Shown here: positions 15,215-62,058 of the stretch, in pieces | Layout of the letters: each line of letters starts with the position of its first letter | How positions within the stretch are numbered: position 1 is the stretch's first letter | Assembly (NCBI GenBank): GCA_022565395.1 | Contig: JAIUMV010000005.1 | Location: 62,001 to 126,000, forward strand | Source: Marinobacter sp. | Lineage (GTDB): Bacteria; Pseudomonadota; Gammaproteobacteria; Pseudomonadales; Oleiphilaceae | Length of the DNA stretch: 64,000 bases | Direction: 5' to 3' | Position numbers and translations under genes: made by a program | Notes under the pieces: generated by a model | Database searches by the model: none | What the model was told of the DNA's origin: nothing | Seen by the model: only the letters and a program-made list of their open reading frames with translations

Positions 15215-16051
15215 ATGCCACGCGTCCATACTTTTCATCCCGTGCTGTTTGCCTGGTTCGCTTTCGCCCTGGCCCTGTTGCCTCTGCGCGTCAGCGCCAC
15301 CCCACTGGCGGAAGCCGTGGTTAAAGCCTCCGCTCTTGACCGGATCATTGATCAGTACCCTGCCATGATGAGCGAAGGCATCAGCGAAGGGATGCGTCAG
15401 GGTGGTTTGCGGGAGCCGATGCTGCTCAACGCCATTACCGGTATTGTCAGTCAGGCCTTCAGTGCCAGCGCCATTCGCCGCCAGGTGGTTAATGATCTGA
15501 GCAATAAGGTGCCCAAGGCAGATCTTGAACAGGTATTGGCCTGGTATGAAACGCCCCTTGGGCGCAAGGTGGGTGGGTTGGAGGCCAGTGCGTCCAACCC
15601 TGAGGCCTGGCGCAAGATTGAACAGCAGTCCAATGCCCTGACCAACCGTTATCAGGGCACGCCCCGGGCCAACATGTTTGCCGCCTTCGATCGTGCCGCC
15701 CGTGCCACTGAAAGTGCCACCGACACGGCTATCGCGGTGCAGCTCTCCATGATCAGTGCCATGGCGGCCTTTGACCCCCAGGCCCGCGCCAACATGGCGC
15801 AGATCAAGCAACAGGTACGTAGCCAGCGCTTCATGATTGAAGGGGTGGTTGAGCAGCAGGTCTATGCGGCCTATCTCTACACCTATCAGGGCATGTCCGA
15901 CGAGGAGCTGCAGGGCTATCTGCAGTTTCTGCAAACGGATCATGGCCAGCGTTATACCCGGGTGATTACAGAATCCATCCAGCAGGCCATTCTGGTGCCG
16001 GTTGAAAGCATCGGCCAGCAGATGTTTCGCCTGTTTAATCGCCAGGGATGA
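15215..16051 (+). CDS. Exported DUF2059 protein
   Basis: A 278-residue protein with a signal peptide (residues 1-28, ending RVSA) and an all-helical mature part typical of DUF2059, a family of periplasmic proteins without an assigned activity. AAGGAG lies before the ATG. The signature region LEQVLAWYETPLGRKVGGLEA is at about 107-127, and a second related block (YQGMSDEELQGYLQFLQTDHG) follows at about 226-246. Its stop overlaps the next start (ATGA), so the two are translationally coupled. Confidence 0.85.
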   Translation: MPRVHTFHPVLFAWFAFALALLPLRVSATPLAEAVVKASALDRIIDQYPAMMSEGISEGMRQGGLREPMLLNAITGIVSQAFSASAIRRQVVNDLSNKVPKADLEQVLAWYETPLGRKVGGLEASASNPEAWRKIEQQSNALTNRYQGTPRANMFAAFDRAARATESATDTAIAVQLSMISAMAAFDPQARANMAQIKQQVRSQRFMIEGVVEQQVYAAYLYTYQGMSDEELQGYLQFLQTDHGQRYTRVITESIQQAILVPVESIGQQMFRLFNRQG

Positions 16052-16632
16052 TCCCGCTCTGGTTCAAGCTGGCCTACACCGCCTTTGTGGTGGTGTTGGT
16101 GCTGGTCTATCTGCGCGGCTATGGGCCGCGCAATTTTCTCTGGTTTTCTGACATCGCCCTGATTGGCGCTGTGCCTGCCATGTGGCTGGAAAGCAGTCTA
16201 CTGGCCAGCATGCTGACCCTGGCGGTGCTGCTCCCAGAGGTGGTGTGGAACACCAGCTTCTTTGGTCACCTGATCACCCGTAAGAAGGTGTTGAAGTTGG
16301 CCGACTATATGTTCGACCCTGCTGAGCCCCGTCACTTGCGGGCCCTCTCGTTATTCCATGTGCCCTTGCCGCTGGTTCTGCTGTGGATGGTGGTGAGCTA
16401 CGGCTACGATGACCGTGCCTTGCAGGCGGCGACGCTGCTGGCCTGGTTGGTACTACCCTTAAGCTGGTGGCTGAGCCCGCCAAAGGAGAATATCAACTGG
16501 GTGTTTGGCCCCCTCGGCAAACCCCAGACCCTGTTGCCGCCGGGTATCTACCTGGGGCTGCTGATGCTGTTCTTTCCCCTGGTCATCTACTGGCCGACGC
16601 ATCATCTGCTGCGTTGGTGGCTGGGAAGCTGA
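16048..16632 (+). CDS. Integral membrane protein of unknown function
   Basis: A 194-residue protein with about six hydrophobic segments and no recognised family. Conserved-looking features are the first loop YGPRNFLWFSDIALIG (about 25-40), a central EVVWNTSFFGHL, and the late motif NINWVFGPLGKPQTLLPPG before the last helix. It overlaps the DUF2059 gene by 4 bases, which suggests a joint envelope role. No catalytic or transport motif is visible. Confidence 0.75.
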   Translation: MIPLWFKLAYTAFVVVLVLVYLRGYGPRNFLWFSDIALIGAVPAMWLESSLLASMLTLAVLLPEVVWNTSFFGHLITRKKVLKLADYMFDPAEPRHLRALSLFHVPLPLVLLWMVVSYGYDDRALQAATLLAWLVLPLSWWLSPPKENINWVFGPLGKPQTLLPPGIYLGLLMLFFPLVIYWPTHHLLRWWLGS

Positions 16633-16787
16633 CAAGTCGTCTCGAAATGTAAAATAGTGTCAAATCGGGCCAAGTTGCCATAGTTTCGACGCAATTGGCA
16701 AAACTGTGCCTCAGGCCTGGTTTACTGCGGCGTTTAATCTGGAAGAATGCCAGCCTCAACACGGATGTCATCAAGAGGCTAACAGTC

Positions 16788-18131
16788 ATGCGTACCCTTC
16801 GATCAACTCTTGCCCCGGCTGTATTACTGGCATTGGCGACTCCCGCCATGGCCGGTATGGGCACCACTGCCACCACTTACGGATTACTGCCCTTTGACGT
16901 GTCGACCGCCCAGAGCCTGTCCCTGTTCGGCACCCAGGCATCGGCGGCTTACTACAACCCGGCTGCACTGACCCGTGATCCGCGTATGGAGATCACCGGC
17001 GCGATCTTTCATGCTGAACACGACCTCAAAGCCCGCAGCGTGGGTGGCTCTGATCCCCTCAGTCGTAGCAGCAACACCCTGTCGAATACTCCCTCCCAGC
17101 AGCTGCAACTGGGGCTGAAGTTTGACCTGGCCAAACTCACCCAGTATGACCACCCCGTCTATCTGGGGTTGATGGTGGGCACCGAGAAGTACGCCCAGGA
17201 TCTGCTGGCATTCCGAGCCGAAACCAGCCAGGGCGGGCAGTACCTGCAGTACGGTCGCCAGCCTCTGTTTGCCAGCGGTGCTATCGCAACCCGGCTCTGG
17301 CGTGGTGTGCATGTTGGTGGTGGTGTCCGCATCATGCTGGAAAACGACGCCAACCTTTATGTGACCACCGATTTGCAAGGCAATACGGATTTTGAACGAC
17401 TTACCGTAAGTGCCCGGCCGGTTGTAACGCCGGTTGTGGGTGCCCGCGTGCAGATGGGGGATACCTTCTGCGAGCGTCAGAACTGCTGGCTGGACGGCCT
17501 TGAGCTTGCGGTAGCCTACCGGGGCCAGGTCAAGGCTGAGGTGAAGGTGGGCGCCGAGGCGGAGATTGATGGCGTGATCAATAACCCCGGCTTGCCCCTG
17601 GCCATTTCGGCCATTGACGGTTTTCAGCCCGCCACCGTCAGTGTCGGTGCGCTATACGAGCTGGGCGGTTACAGCCGGGTTGGCGTTACGGTTGAACTGC
17701 AGCAGTGGTCGGCGCTGGATGATGAGCTGGCCAAGGACACAGTGCGAGATCAGGCCAATGCCCGTTTCCGCGACATCGTGATTCCCCGCCTTGGTTATGA
17801 GCGAGACCTGACCCACGGCCTGACCATGCGGGGAGGTGTATCCTGGGAACCGTCATCCCTCAAAGATAACGACACCCTGGAAGTGAATTATCTGGATACC
17901 GACCGGATTGTGATCGGTCTGGGGGGCAGCCTGGTGTGGCGTCACCCGCCAGTGCTGGCGTTCCCGTTGCAGCTGGATTTCGGTTACCAGTATCACCACT
18001 TGATAAAGCGGGACTTTGACCTTTACTCCGCGCACCCTTCTAATCCCTCAGGCCCCAACCAGCCTTTTGAGACGGTGGAAGCCAGTGGTAGCGTGCATGT
18101 ATTCACCGGCAGCGCCACGTTGCGCTTCTAA
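16788..18131 (+). CDS. FadL/OmpP1-like outer membrane protein
   Basis: Outer-membrane beta-barrel of the FadL/TodX type or a close relative, which would pass hydrophobic substrates such as fatty acids or hydrocarbons. The ATG at 16788 is chosen over the longer frame because AGAGG precedes it and a signal peptide begins there (cleaved after TPAMA, residue 22). The early motif ASAAYYNPAALTRDPRMEI (about 47-65) is the FadL-like hatch sequence. The protein ends in the barrel signal TLRF (447 residues). An extra Cys pair (CERQNC) is at about 226-231. It is 11 bases upstream of the giant lipoprotein gene. Confidence 0.78.
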   Translation: MRTLRSTLAPAVLLALATPAMAGMGTTATTYGLLPFDVSTAQSLSLFGTQASAAYYNPAALTRDPRMEITGAIFHAEHDLKARSVGGSDPLSRSSNTLSNTPSQQLQLGLKFDLAKLTQYDHPVYLGLMVGTEKYAQDLLAFRAETSQGGQYLQYGRQPLFASGAIATRLWRGVHVGGGVRIMLENDANLYVTTDLQGNTDFERLTVSARPVVTPVVGARVQMGDTFCERQNCWLDGLELAVAYRGQVKAEVKVGAEAEIDGVINNPGLPLAISAIDGFQPATVSVGALYELGGYSRVGVTVELQQWSALDDELAKDTVRDQANARFRDIVIPRLGYERDLTHGLTMRGGVSWEPSSLKDNDTLEVNYLDTDRIVIGLGGSLVWRHPPVLAFPLQLDFGYQYHHLIKRDFDLYSAHPSNPSGPNQPFETVEASGSVHVFTGSATLRF

Positions 18132-18142
18132 AGGGGGTGAGT

Positions 18143-21100
18143 ATGAAACGCTTTACCCTGATTCTGTGTCTGGTGGCTGCGCTGGTGGCCTGTGGTGGTG
18201 ATCAGGCTGAAATAGGCCCTAATCCCTCAGCCCAGGCGCGCAGCCAGTCGCTGGTGTATGCCTACCCCGCCCATCAGCAGCAGCGTGTGCCGCTATCTGC
18301 ACCGGTGGTGCTGCGCTTCAGCAGCGCCGTGGTCTCTGAGCAGCCGGAGCAGATCATTCAGTGGCTGGATGCGGATGATCATGCGCTGGATTTCAGCGTG
18401 ACCCTCGCGGACGAGGGGCGCAGCCTGATGCTGGCACCGGGCAGTCGCCTGCAACCGGGCGCCGCCTACCGTGTGGTGTTGGACGGTTTGATGCTGGCCA
18501 AGGGGCCGGTGCAACCCCGCACCCTGACCTTTGAAACCGCTTATCTGACGTCCGGGCCCATCAGCCAGGTGGCCAGTGACAGCAGCTTCCATGTGGAACA
18601 CCGCTTCCCCGATGGGGATTTTTTCCCGATTCTGGATTTCAGCAGCCTGCGTCTGCAGTTCAGTCAGCCGTTGGACCGCCGCTCACTGAGCTACGGCGAC
18701 AACCTGCGACTGAGCGGCCCGGACGGGCTGGTGCCGGCGGAGGTGCTGGTCAGTGGCCACTACCTCACCCTGGACCCACGGCAGGAGCTGACCCCGGGCG
18801 CGACCTACACCCTCAGCCTGGGCGACACCCTCACCAGTACCTTGGGTGTCGATATGGCGGCCACCGAATACACGTTTGTGCCGCGCAGTTCCGGCGGTCG
18901 TTCCACGCTGGTGCAGCAGGTGCCGGATGCCAACAGTGGTCAGCGTTTGTCCATACTGACCGGTGAGCCCATCAATCAAGTGCCCTTGCAGGCGGTGTTA
19001 CTGGGGGATGACAACAGCACCCAGCAAACCGGTGATATCTATGCCGAGCTGGCTCATATCCCGACCTTTCCCACGGTGACGCCCTTGCGGGTCAAGCGTG
19101 GTTCCCTGCTGCAGGGCAGTCCGCTGGAGCTGTTGATCGGGGGGGAGGTGCCTGCTGGCTTTGGCTCCGGAGAGATTGAGATCCGTTTTATTTCCGATGC
19201 CATGGGCTACCTGCTGGAAAATCCGTTTTCCCGTCAGCCGGATGCACCTCGTCACTTGGTGCTGTACATGGATATTGCCATCAGCGCTCAGGACCCGCGA
19301 GCTAATGGCGCGGTGACCCAGAACATACTGCACTTGCAGTTGAACGGTACCGCTGTGGTGGAAGACGGACAAATGGTGATCAACGCCATTGGCGTGGCTG
19401 AGCCGCGTTTGCTGGGACTGGAGTCGGCCCGCAGTCTGCTGAGCTTTTATATGGCGTCTTATCCGGACCAGCGCAATGCGCCCCTGCCGCCACAGGATCA
19501 GACCGCGCCTCAGTTGCTGAGCTGGCTGCCGGGGGCGGAAGCTGAACGCTACCGGCCGACGGACCCGCTGATCTTCAATTTCAGTGAACCCCTGATTCCG
19601 GGCAGCATCCGTGCCGGCGATAATGCGTTGTTGCTGGTGGACGATGAGCCTGTAGCCTTCCACAGTCATGTGGATGGCGCCGCACTGGTCATCACGCCGG
19701 TCGAGTCGCTGCCTTACGGCAGTGAGGTGGAGTGGGTGATGTTTGATGGGGTAACGGACCTGGCAGGAAACCCGGCGTCTGCAGAAATCTTTGCCTTTCA
19801 GGTACCGGCACTGGCGGAGGGTCCGGCCCATGCACCGGTCATACTGTCCACCTATCCCGGCTTCCCCTGTCCGACCCAAAGCCGGGATCTGGCGGCTGAC
19901 AACGCAGGCCGCTGTATTGGCGGTCTGGCCACGGATGATCATTTGCCGCTGGCCCGCTTACCGGCGGATCGCCTGCTTCACATGGTGTTCTCGCGGGAGC
20001 TGGATCCGGCCTCGGTAACACCGGAAACCCTGCAGGTGCACCGCGTTGATGATCAGGGTGAGCCCCTGGAGGTTGTGGCCGGGCATCTCGCCCTGCGCGG
20101 GCGCACACTGACTTTTGCCCCGGCCGAGCCCTGGCAGCCCGGCACTTTGTATCGCTACCGACTGCACTCGGTGCTCGATAACCCGGACTGCGGCGTCAAT
20201 GCCCTCTGTGATCGGGATGGCTTACCACTGAAGACCATGGTGCTGGCGCTGAGCCCGGCGCAAGCGTTTGCGCCCACACAAGGCGGGCCAAATCTGGATA
20301 TCTTCTTCCGTGGCGCAGCCGAGGTAACCGATGTGCTGCAGCAACTGGCCAATCTGCCAACCGCGGATGTGAATGCCAACTTTGTTGCGGACCCCGGCGA
20401 GCCACGGTTTTCTGACCACCCCGATGGACTGGAAAACACTGCCCGGCTGGTACGCAACCCGGCGGCCAATCCCCTCAACGATGGTACGTCGGCTTCCGGT
20501 AACGCCGTGGATGATGCCAATGTCGGCTGCGGTTTTACCGAAGACGAGCCCCCTGTGCCGCTGGTTTGCGATGACCAGCAGTATCTGCACATGAATGGCA
20601 TCCTGCATGCCGACGTGGTCGGCTTCCGTGCGTCCCATGAGCTGGACCCCAGCGACCCCACCATTCCGGCGCTGGTGCAACAGCAGGGTGGCGTGCTGGT
20701 CTATATTTACCCGACCCAGATGTTCCTGTCAGGTACGGTGGTGCATGTTGAAACGTCGGATGCGGTGAAGATGCTCAGCTTTGTCGCCCAGCCGGTAGAT
20801 ACGGGGCCGCAGGTCATGCGTATTCGCGCGGCTTGCGATGCGGCTATCGTTGGGAGTTGTGACGCTCACCAGGGTCGGATACCGGCCTGGATTGTCGAGC
20901 AGGGGGGGGAGCCCCAATTGCTGGTCAGCCTGGATCTGTATCTGGATGCGCCCTGGCTGGATCCGGTGGTGGAGAACTTCAATATCCTCAATCCGGACGG
21001 CAGCCCAACCTTGCTGCCCGTTAGCCATGACCTGCGCAGTTATCCGCTGAGCCTGAGCCTGGCGGGCGGGGTTAGTTTCCTGCCGGATGGGCGTCTGGCC

Positions 21101-21244
21101 ATTCAGCAGGTCAGTCTGAATGATCTGGCGCTGAGTATTAATCTGCAACTGGGCTCACCGCCTATTCTGACGGCAGATCTGTATCTGGCCATTCCGGCCG
21201 GTGAGGTGCGCCTGGTCTACGTGTCGGAACCCGTCAAACAGTAA
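18143..21244 (+). CDS. Large Ig-like (Big_5) domain lipoprotein
   Basis: A 1033-residue lipoprotein: a signal peptide with lipobox LVAC (Cys about 17), then at least three bacterial Ig-like domains of the Big_5/SbsA type, each starting near a P-x-x-x-PVVLRFS or PLIFNFSEPL stretch (about 45-130, 150-250, 465-555, 595-690). The C-terminal third is different, with Cys pairs (CGVNALC, CGFTEDEPPVPLVC) and a DANFVADPGEP-type acidic region that may bind Ca. AGGGGG precedes the ATG at 18143. Cotranscription with the FadL-like barrel suggests a cell-surface partner or substrate-capturing role, which is inference. Confidence 0.8.
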   Translation: MKRFTLILCLVAALVACGGDQAEIGPNPSAQARSQSLVYAYPAHQQQRVPLSAPVVLRFSSAVVSEQPEQIIQWLDADDHALDFSVTLADEGRSLMLAPGSRLQPGAAYRVVLDGLMLAKGPVQPRTLTFETAYLTSGPISQVASDSSFHVEHRFPDGDFFPILDFSSLRLQFSQPLDRRSLSYGDNLRLSGPDGLVPAEVLVSGHYLTLDPRQELTPGATYTLSLGDTLTSTLGVDMAATEYTFVPRSSGGRSTLVQQVPDANSGQRLSILTGEPINQVPLQAVLLGDDNSTQQTGDIYAELAHIPTFPTVTPLRVKRGSLLQGSPLELLIGGEVPAGFGSGEIEIRFISDAMGYLLENPFSRQPDAPRHLVLYMDIAISAQDPRANGAVTQNILHLQLNGTAVVEDGQMVINAIGVAEPRLLGLESARSLLSFYMASYPDQRNAPLPPQDQTAPQLLSWLPGAEAERYRPTDPLIFNFSEPLIPGSIRAGDNALLLVDDEPVAFHSHVDGAALVITPVESLPYGSEVEWVMFDGVTDLAGNPASAEIFAFQVPALAEGPAHAPVILSTYPGFPCPTQSRDLAADNAGRCIGGLATDDHLPLARLPADRLLHMVFSRELDPASVTPETLQVHRVDDQGEPLEVVAGHLALRGRTLTFAPAEPWQPGTLYRYRLHSVLDNPDCGVNALCDRDGLPLKTMVLALSPAQAFAPTQGGPNLDIFFRGAAEVTDVLQQLANLPTADVNANFVADPGEPRFSDHPDGLENTARLVRNPAANPLNDGTSASGNAVDDANVGCGFTEDEPPVPLVCDDQQYLHMNGILHADVVGFRASHELDPSDPTIPALVQQQGGVLVYIYPTQMFLSGTVVHVETSDAVKMLSFVAQPVDTGPQVMRIRAACDAAIVGSCDAHQGRIPAWIVEQGGEPQLLVSLDLYLDAPWLDPVVENFNILNPDGSPTLLPVSHDLRSYPLSLSLAGGVSFLPDGRLAIQQVSLNDLALSINLQLGSPPILTADLYLAIPAGEVRLVYVSEPVKQ

Positions 21245-60960: not shown

Positions 60961-62058
60961 TCAGGATGCGTCGCTGGTGGAAGGCCGGCGGTTTTTAACC
61001 CGGGGGACAATCCGGTTACGCCCGGCTTCTTTGGCTTCGTACAGATTGATGTCAGCATGTTTGAGAAGGTCATCGGCGGTACTGGCCTGGGACACAGTAG
61101 CGACACCGGCGCTGATGGTGACGGGCAGGCGCTGGCCATTGAAATCGAAGACGGTTTGTTCCACCTGTTCCCGCAGCCGTTCAGCCAATACCAGGGCCTG
61201 CAGTAATGAGGTGTCCGGTAGTAACAACAGAAATTCCTCGCCGCCCCAGCGGCCTGCCACGTCTGTCTGTCGGCACACGCTTTCCATCAGCCGGGCAAAA
61301 CGCTGTAGCACCAGGTCGCCCGCATTATGACCGTAATCGTCGTTGATGCGCTTGAACAGATCCAGGTCGATCAGAATGACTGAAAAATGGTGGCCTGAAC
61401 GGTGGTAGCGGGAGAGCTCAATGGCGATGCACTGTTGCATGTCACGACGGTTGGATAGGCCGGTAAGTTCGTCTGTTCGGGCCGCTTTTTCGTGCATGGT
61501 TGCCATCGCCAGCAGTTCACTGCGGGCCTGACGCCGTCCGGACTCCAGAATGAAACAGAACAGGGTTTCGAAAGCGATGGTGGCGTAGAACCGCAGCTTG
61601 AAGTCGGCGTCATACTCGGCAGTAACAAACGGCAGATCAGGGAAGCCAAACACGATCGCTGTCAGCAGCATGCAGATCAGAATCAGCAGCGTGCCTGTCT
61701 TGAGGTCGGTAAGGTAGAACAGCAGGGGCGGGAACACGTAGAGCCACAAGGGCCCGGTATTGCTCTCACCGCCAGACGCCACCAGGTAGATAAACAGCAG
61801 GGCGACACTGGTTAGCAGGCTGGTTTTCAGAACCCGGGTATTGTTCAGTGCCCTGCTGATGAGCAGATTCGCCAGCAGCAGGGCGGCAAAGCCCCAAAGC
61901 ACCAGCCCATGGACGTTGTGCCCGCCAAACCAGGACTTGAGTCCGATGCTGATCAGGAACAGGATGCCCGCCAGGGCGATGTAGGTAAGCACCCGGGCAA
62001 CACGGGTCTGCTCCTCCTCTTCCGCCAACTCAAGGCGGGCACGGTTTGGTTGAATCAT
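60961..62058 (-). CDS. Diguanylate cyclase with N-terminal membrane sensor
   Basis: About 365 residues from the ATG at 62058 (an in-frame GTG at 62094 is possible). There are five or six membrane helices (about 22-180). The C-terminal GGDEF domain has the active motif RWGGEEF (about 269-275) and an inhibitory I-site RQTD five residues before it, so c-di-GMP feedback inhibition is expected. DELTGLSNRRDM marks the domain start (about 194). It probably opposes the nearby phosphodiesterase. Confidence 0.9.
   Translation of the reverse strand: MIQPNRARLELAEEEEQTRVARVLTYIALAGILFLISIGLKSWFGGHNVHGLVLWGFAALLLANLLISRALNNTRVLKTSLLTSVALLFIYLVASGGESNTGPLWLYVFPPLLFYLTDLKTGTLLILICMLLTAIVFGFPDLPFVTAEYDADFKLRFYATIAFETLFCFILESGRRQARSELLAMATMHEKAARTDELTGLSNRRDMQQCIAIELSRYHRSGHHFSVILIDLDLFKRINDDYGHNAGDLVLQRFARLMESVCRQTDVAGRWGGEEFLLLLPDTSLLQALVLAERLREQVEQTVFDFNGQRLPVTISAGVATVSQASTADDLLKHADINLYEAKEAGRNRIVPRVKNRRPSTSDAS

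Follow-up and report, generated by a model that had tools for sequence, protein, structure and literature searches.

Two adjacent genes at positions 16788–21244 of a 64,000-nucleotide stretch of Marinobacter sp. DNA (contig JAIUMV010000005.1, contig 5 of the source genome G000, positions 62001–126000; hereafter the window) very probably form a divergent aupA-aupB operon that takes up a hydrophobic molecule, with a large lipoprotein bound to an outer-membrane barrel and aiding capture. The pair adds one more member to the AupAB family of alkane-uptake genes, a system that is itself already known, and is ordinary in kind. This identification draws on the full-length match of the barrel to AupA, its FadL fold, the identity of both proteins to a Marinobacter nauticus pair and the same intergenic gap; on the pairing, co-occurrence and partner fit of the two families across genomes and an alkane monooxygenase match in the source genome; and on the published mutants, their association with 14C-hexadecane and the co-immunoprecipitation of the two proteins, together with the conserved lipobox and its +2 glycine. 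The features of the pair are listed below, with immunoglobulin-like abbreviated as Ig-like.

16788..18131, + strand: AupA-type FadL-family outer-membrane barrel gene, 447 aa (NCBIfam NF041571, Pfam Toluene_X, AlphaFold2 model)
18132..18142, + strand: intergenic gap, 11 bases (sequence)
18143..21244, + strand: AupB-type Ig-like lipoprotein gene, 1033 aa (Pfam Big_5, conserved columns, AlphaFold2)
18143..18193, + strand: predicted lipoprotein signal peptide, ending LVAC with GGDQ following; Cys17 would be lipidated, Gly at +2
18242..18547, + strand: Ig-like domain 1, residues 34–135 (model range matched by CopC and an alpha-amylase domain, Z ≤12.8)
18557..18895, + strand: Ig-like domain 2, residues 139–251 (Z 10.8 to 5a42)
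18905..19477, + strand: beta-rich region X1, residues ~255–445 (long strands in DSSP of the model)
19496..19810, + strand: Ig-like domain 3, residues 452–556 (best Big_5 stretch 452–552; CopC Z 13.0)
19835..20170, + strand: Ig-like domain 4 region with conserved Cys576/Cys591, residues ~565–676 (half-versus-half profile comparison)
20258..21241, + strand: beta-rich C-terminal region X2 with conserved Cys796/809, residues ~706–1033 (DSSP of the model)

The barrel gene (likely start ATG 16788, stop 18131) encodes a protein with a signal-peptide-like N-terminus that matched Pfam Toluene_X (FadL/TodX) at 39.6 bits (cut-off 29.7) and, as its only strong NCBIfam match, NF041571 (alkane uptake protein AupA) at 458 bits over residues 11–447. 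It was 44% identical to AupA of M. nauticus DSM 50418 (locus L101), where the gap between the two genes is also 11 bases. The AlphaFold2 model of the barrel (predicted local distance difference test score, pLDDT, 82.6) found its best structural match in E. coli FadL (Z 31.7, root-mean-square deviation 3.5, 333 aligned residues). The original prediction from the DNA of a FadL-like porin is borne out by these results, as is its claim that both genes, exactly 11 bases apart, carry export signals; however, it placed the start of the feature at 16048, which is the start of a neighbouring membrane protein gene.

The lipoprotein (ATG 18143, stop 21244) was 31.8% identical to M. nauticus AupB across residues 3–1032 (expect value, E, 3e-141), and Pfam Big_5 matched it in four stretches (102.7 bits), in agreement with the several Big_5-like domains that had been proposed for a 1033-residue lipoprotein. 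Its AlphaFold2 model (pLDDT 92.2; predicted template modelling score 0.89) consists of the Ig-like domains plus the beta-rich regions X1 and X2, for which no Pfam or NCBIfam match was found; NCBIfam likewise held no model for AupB. The best structural matches of the whole model were single Ig-type domains (top CopC, Z 13.0), the result lists of whole-model searches of the Protein Data Bank (PDB) were filled by Ig domains, and AupB sequence matches in the PDB were solely to Ig-type domains. When the two halves of the lipoprotein were compared as profiles, the Ig pairs aligned at E 1.7e-13 and are clearly repeated. For X1 and X2, an initial comparison yielded a colinear match of 124 columns (E 0.02). 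A second one, with 97 sequences and leaving out the incomplete L134, scored 19.4, where 200 column permutations reached at most 19.2, but with an alignment differing from the first; a tandem duplication of a whole [Ig-Ig-X] unit is accordingly not proposed. A 377-codon open frame matching only region X2 of AupB was also seen at L021 (G001:C4:267248-267910), either a remnant or a separate protein. The alignment of 77 AupB sequences contained 35 invariant columns. The description of a Cys-rich C-terminal third is only partly right: eight of the ten cysteines of the window protein lie within residues 576–906, where they stand in close pairs, and six of the ten (576, 591, 683, 689, 796 and 809) are conserved in 68–77 of the 77 aligned relatives, which would fit stabilising disulphides better than a Cys-rich module.

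How long, nearly water-insoluble alkanes pass the bacterial envelope is poorly understood, and aupA and aupB of Marinobacter hydrocarbonoclasticus SP17 (MARHY0478/0477) are needed for the uptake of micellar n-alkanes (PMC5989066). According to the text of that study available here, aup mutants are slowed on alkanes and fail to grow on hexadecane supplied in Brij 58 micelles, show normal growth with hexadecanol, palmitate, wax ester, triglyceride or hexadecane vapour, and associate with only as much 14C-hexadecane as killed cells do, an association that is restored in the aupB-complemented strain; AupA and AupB co-immunoprecipitate, aupAB is distributed almost exclusively among hydrocarbon-degrading genera, and an alkane hydroxylase was present in 70 of the 75 genomes surveyed (PMC5989066). 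In Marinobacter TT1 the AupB homologue, termed an Ig-like domain protein, is induced on hexadecane (PMC7822026, available text). The two-part envelope system for hydrophobic substrate capture suggested in the original prediction is therefore supported, because the window pair is homologous to AupA-AupB, whose part in taking up micellar alkanes is documented by the mutants and by labelled hexadecane.

On this basis, the barrel would be a FadL-type outer-membrane channel. Its cargo would be hydrophobic, most probably an n-alkane offered in micelles or on an oil surface. The lipoprotein, in which four Ig-like domains are predicted to be strung together with the beta-rich regions X1 and X2 behind an N-terminal lipid anchor, would bind to the barrel, help to capture the substrate and hand it on. 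We infer the same class of substrate in the source organism, where the lipoprotein would act at the outer membrane in the capture step and the pair would presumably form one transcript.

A scan of named genomes provided 79 loci, from the best 80 of 160, which contained 95 AupB open reading frames (ORFs). By title they come from Alcanivorax, Alloalcanivorax, Alcanivoracaceae, Marinobacter, Mangrovitalea and a small number of further gammaproteobacterial assemblies. For 80 of these 95 ORFs the immediate upstream neighbour is an AupA homologue, with a gap of -7 to 61 bases, an adjacency that is more than chance; the other 15 include contig ends, solitary copies and three loci of Alcanivorax-type genomes (L030, L031 and L032) with AupA downstream instead, in which an inverted AupB-AupA arrangement precedes a normal AupA-AupB pair. 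Across the 121 genomes of the window's family, strong AupB (E <1e-100) was found in 73 and AupA (E ≤1e-60) in 72, with both in 72 and AupA alone in none, which runs counter to the possibility, raised with the original prediction, that the two families rarely co-occur. Any AupB match at E ≤0.001 was found in 87 of the 121, the 14 weaker ones, partly single Ig-type stretches or pieces, being left uncounted. The sole genome with strong AupB only (G122) carries an AupA remnant with a large internal deletion, immediately upstream of an apparently intact AupB (L167:277-4147), and G078, with no AupA at E ≤1e-60, carries broken AupB pieces only. In 14 genomes with several pairs, true partners fitted each other more closely than swapped partners did in 25 of the 26 comparisons, although these are related genomes and the comparisons are not independent; only full-length pairs were used here (70 of the 80, plus the window pair). 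Two alignments comprised, respectively, 86 of the 95 AupB ORFs (full-length, with a recognised lipobox and start), thinned to 76 (A2), and 78 of 88 AupA ORFs (full), thinned to 60 (A3). Outside the family, a genome of the same order (G589) showed the ordinary AupA-AupB order.

The source genome carries at least three further AupB copies (at least four in total), two on contig 18 and one on contig 47. One contig 18 copy has AupA directly upstream; the other and the contig 47 copy start at contig ends, each with an AupA gene downstream, that on contig 47 being cut by the contig end. In the AupB tree, one contig 18 copy falls inside a Marinobacter clade, and the window copy joins copies from a 'Halomonadaceae' and an Alcanivoracaceae metagenome-assembled genome (support 0.99 and 1.0), with three Alcanivorax copies branching next (0.997). 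Nine FA_desaturase-family matches were found in the source genome and the loci of eight were retrieved; the L111 protein, the only one compared with the PDB, matched alkane 1-monooxygenase 8f6t at E 1.3e-157, and NCBIfam names nothing for it at E 1e-10.

Several observations weigh against reading the pair as an aupA-aupB operon with an outer-membrane capture lipoprotein. The 458 bits of the barrel are below the 840-bit equivalog naming cut-off of NF041571, so that the identity of its substrate is not certain. This cut-off is passed by M. nauticus (900) and M. algicola (892), while three copies of Alcanivorax DG881 score 379, 511 and 630; since the published survey counted DG881 as carrying six aupAB copies (PMC5989066, available text), the cut-off does not bound the published family and the window copy is within the family's range. 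The window copy nevertheless groups with Alcanivorax-type copies, outside the Marinobacter clade that has been tested experimentally. Solitary AupB genes without an adjoining AupA exist in Marinobacter and Alloalcanivorax (L065, L072, L105, L044, L049 and L055), no terminator-like site was found 3' of the lipoprotein gene, and the three promoter-like sites at the locus, against 1.9 expected, are at about chance level. Lastly, sucrose gradients placed AupA in the outer membrane and most of the Marinobacter AupB in inner-membrane fractions with the marker NADH oxidase, with a little of it accompanying AupA (PMC5989066, available text); this is direct evidence opposing an outer-membrane capture role, a reading that does not account for it.

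The authors of that study proposed that AupB is anchored in the inner membrane and bridges the periplasm or shuttles alkane across it from AupA to an inner-membrane monooxygenase (PMC5989066, available text), an alternative that deserves serious weight although we consider it the less probable one. It accounts for the fractionation, and a chain of six beta-rich regions might extend far enough to span the periplasm. The signal sequence points the opposite way. A pattern search of the 79 loci found a lipobox in 92 of the 95 AupB ORFs, one of the remaining three being cut by a contig end and two having a related site off the pattern; the residue at +2 was Gly in 87 of the 92, Asp in two, and Ser, Leu and Ala in one each. 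(These counts come from the full set of 95, since alignment A2 was selected for the lipobox and its lipobox Cys is invariant by choice.) In E. coli, a lipobox without Asp at +2 sends a lipoprotein to the outer membrane, a rule that may not hold in these bacteria; by this rule the window protein fits the features of an outer-membrane lipoprotein, and AupB is predicted to be a conserved lipoprotein of that membrane. Among distant AupB-like proteins the +2 residues are mixed. The available hexadecane data also speak against the bridge, as a step after AupA need not abolish the association of hexadecane with cells, which was lost in the mutants and regained with aupB (PMC5989066). Because of the conserved +2 Gly and these association data, we favour a capture role for AupB together with AupA at the outer membrane. 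The main text of PMC5989066 as available uses none of the terms lipoprotein, lipobox, signal peptide, Ig-like and Lol; PMC12472514, in its available part, applies the word lipoprotein to other genes and names AupB in a reference only.

It is rather unlikely that the divergent window copy belongs to the same machine and takes a different substrate, such as a fatty acid, a wax ester or another oily compound. The presence of at least three other AupB copies beside it in the genome, its grouping with Alcanivorax copies and its sub-threshold AupA score would suit this alternative, whereas the normal growth of Marinobacter aup mutants on hexadecanol, palmitate, wax ester and triglyceride, and the near restriction of the system to hydrocarbon degraders, do not (PMC5989066, available text). 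We see very little prospect of the lipoprotein serving as a surface adhesin or coat protein beside an unlinked barrel: Foldseek matches include S-layer Ig domains, but these cover little of the protein (query TM-scores 0.07–0.12), the lipoprotein is paired and co-inherited with AupA, and the published mutants adhere normally to hexadecane droplets (PMC5989066, available text), and the adhesin reading was rejected on these grounds. Scarcely any credence is given to a surface lipase feeding a FadL partner, for which the precedent is the consecutive numbering of the Vibrio cholerae FadL homologue vca0862 and the lipase VolA vca0863 in the part of the source available. The window lipoprotein matched no lipase family in Pfam at E ≤1, and its model is almost all beta with short helices only, quite unlike an alpha/beta hydrolase fold; the lipase reading was rejected for both reasons.

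Relatives of AupB also occur well beyond the window's family. A profile scan of 369 genomes of the class found distant AupB relatives in at least three genomes outside the family (G201, G311 and G419), and a scan of 398 genomes of the phylum found relatives in at least five, the source genome included; both scans scored at most two candidates per genome, so that these counts are lower bounds. An AupB profile that excluded them was matched over most of its extent by five distant proteins, which have the lipobox Cys and Big_5 domains in common and are 23–24% identical to the window protein; a plasmid search with one distant AupB-like protein gave no match. In the gammaproteobacterial family of G311 (f184), 13 of 17 genomes carry 20 AupB-like copies, and no AupA was found in the 17 at E ≤0.001 with the same query that had found it in 72 of the 121 genomes of the window's family. 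Of the 20 copies, 9 have an OmpW-family match (36.8–61.9 bits, cut-off 24) within 1 kb and 12 within 5 kb, in each case downstream and on the same strand, with distances measured between profile matches. In G201 an OmpW gene (72.6 bits) directly borders the AupB-like gene at its end, and a search for AupA, confined to that locus, found none. Two of the OmpW-family partners, when compared with the PDB, matched OprG and OmpW. A channel function for hydrophobic molecules is ascribed to FadL as well as to OmpW (PMC4684044, available text), and the alkane channel AlkL resembles OmpW (PMC5989066, available text).

This gene order suggests that an AupB-like partner works with two unrelated barrels for hydrophobic molecules. 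Three points weigh against the OmpW association: 8 of the 20 f184 copies have no OmpW match within 5 kb downstream on their contig, the copies are partly orthologous so that 12 of 20 represents few independent events rather than 12, and the evidence is limited to one family and G201. We therefore put forward only tentatively a wider family of AupB-like capture receptors, in which an outer-membrane-anchored half that does not depend on the type of barrel would be combined with a FadL-type barrel (AupA) in Marinobacter and Alcanivorax and with an OmpW-type barrel elsewhere, some members having PraA/PraB-like exoproteins in between. If so, AupB-like lipoproteins would be the shared half of a two-part outer-membrane machine for oily molecules, a general uptake helper. 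Our literature search found no report of an AupB-like protein with OmpW, most subscription papers being outside that search.

The arrangements around the distant genes vary. At L126:5444-9171 and L128:5933-10564, an AupB-like lipoprotein gene is followed directly by an OmpW-family barrel gene, with no AupA match in either locus, and OmpW also follows AupB-like genes in L130, L134-L136, L138-L140, L142 and L147. Some loci have an exported protein weakly resembling PraA/PraB (alkane oxidation activator family) after the AupB-like gene, with scores far below the cut-offs (29.9 and 29.2 against 150 bits; 16.7 to 26.9 against 120). In L160, L161, L162, L146, L148 and L149 a small exported protein follows the lipoprotein, PraA/PraB-like to this weak degree in those compared; an OmpW-family barrel lies 2–3 kb further on in L160-L162, and in L160 and L161 a further lipoprotein-like gene follows, the two being similar to each other. 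The AupB-like genes of L127, L128 and L163 stand beside an apparent MlaD/ABC (ATP-binding cassette) lipid-transporter operon on the opposite strand, where MlaD and ABC-auxiliary Pfam matches were obtained for the loci compared (L127 and L131).

Upstream of the window pair, in the order DUF2059 gene, small membrane protein gene, barrel gene and lipoprotein gene, are the following.

15215-16051: DUF2059 gene
16048-16632: small membrane protein gene, with an ATGA overlap with the DUF2059 gene

The overlap had been described correctly in the original prediction, but its suggestion that these two genes are linked to the barrel-lipoprotein pair did not hold. Homologues of neither were found in the 79 AupAB loci (BLASTP E ≤1e-4; flanks of up to 6 kb per side). 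The membrane protein is rare, being present in 2 of 38 relatives (the source genome included), and in the other relative its gene is on a different contig from aupAB, with no P0003 match in the 3567 bases examined at its locus. The linkage was rejected on the absence from the 79 loci and the separate contig.

AupAB is thus a known alkane route, but one in which the published location of AupB is called into question by its own signal sequence. The disputed location, regions X1 and X2 and the apparent pairing with two unrelated barrels are worth following, and the location of AupB and its range of barrels can be tested directly by way of its conserved lipobox, its confident model and the relatives that stand next to OmpW genes.

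Compared with AupA-AupB of SP17, the window pair shares the gene order, the 11-base gap and the combination of a FadL-type barrel with a large Ig-like partner, and its genome, like that of SP17, has an alkane monooxygenase and multiple copies (PMC5989066, available text); it differs in being 44% and 32% identical to the M. nauticus DSM 50418 pair, in an AupA score under the NCBIfam cut-off and in its Alcanivorax-type grouping. With the FadL/TodX family, the window barrel has in common a barrel fold with short N-terminal helices, although it is only 14–17% identical to FadL/TodX-family entries in structural alignments and has a lipoprotein partner. To our knowledge, E. coli FadL has no paired lipoprotein. 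The VolA-FadL system of Vibrio cholerae, as far as the available part of its description goes, also has a lipoprotein gene numbered next to a FadL homologue and serves lipid scavenging, but VolA is a lipase, whereas no lipase domain was detected in the window lipoprotein. The OmpW-neighboured relatives in f184 and G201 resemble the window system in their match to the AupB profile, their Big_5 domains and a nearby barrel gene of a family linked with hydrophobic molecules, and differ in that this barrel belongs to the OmpW family and not to FadL.

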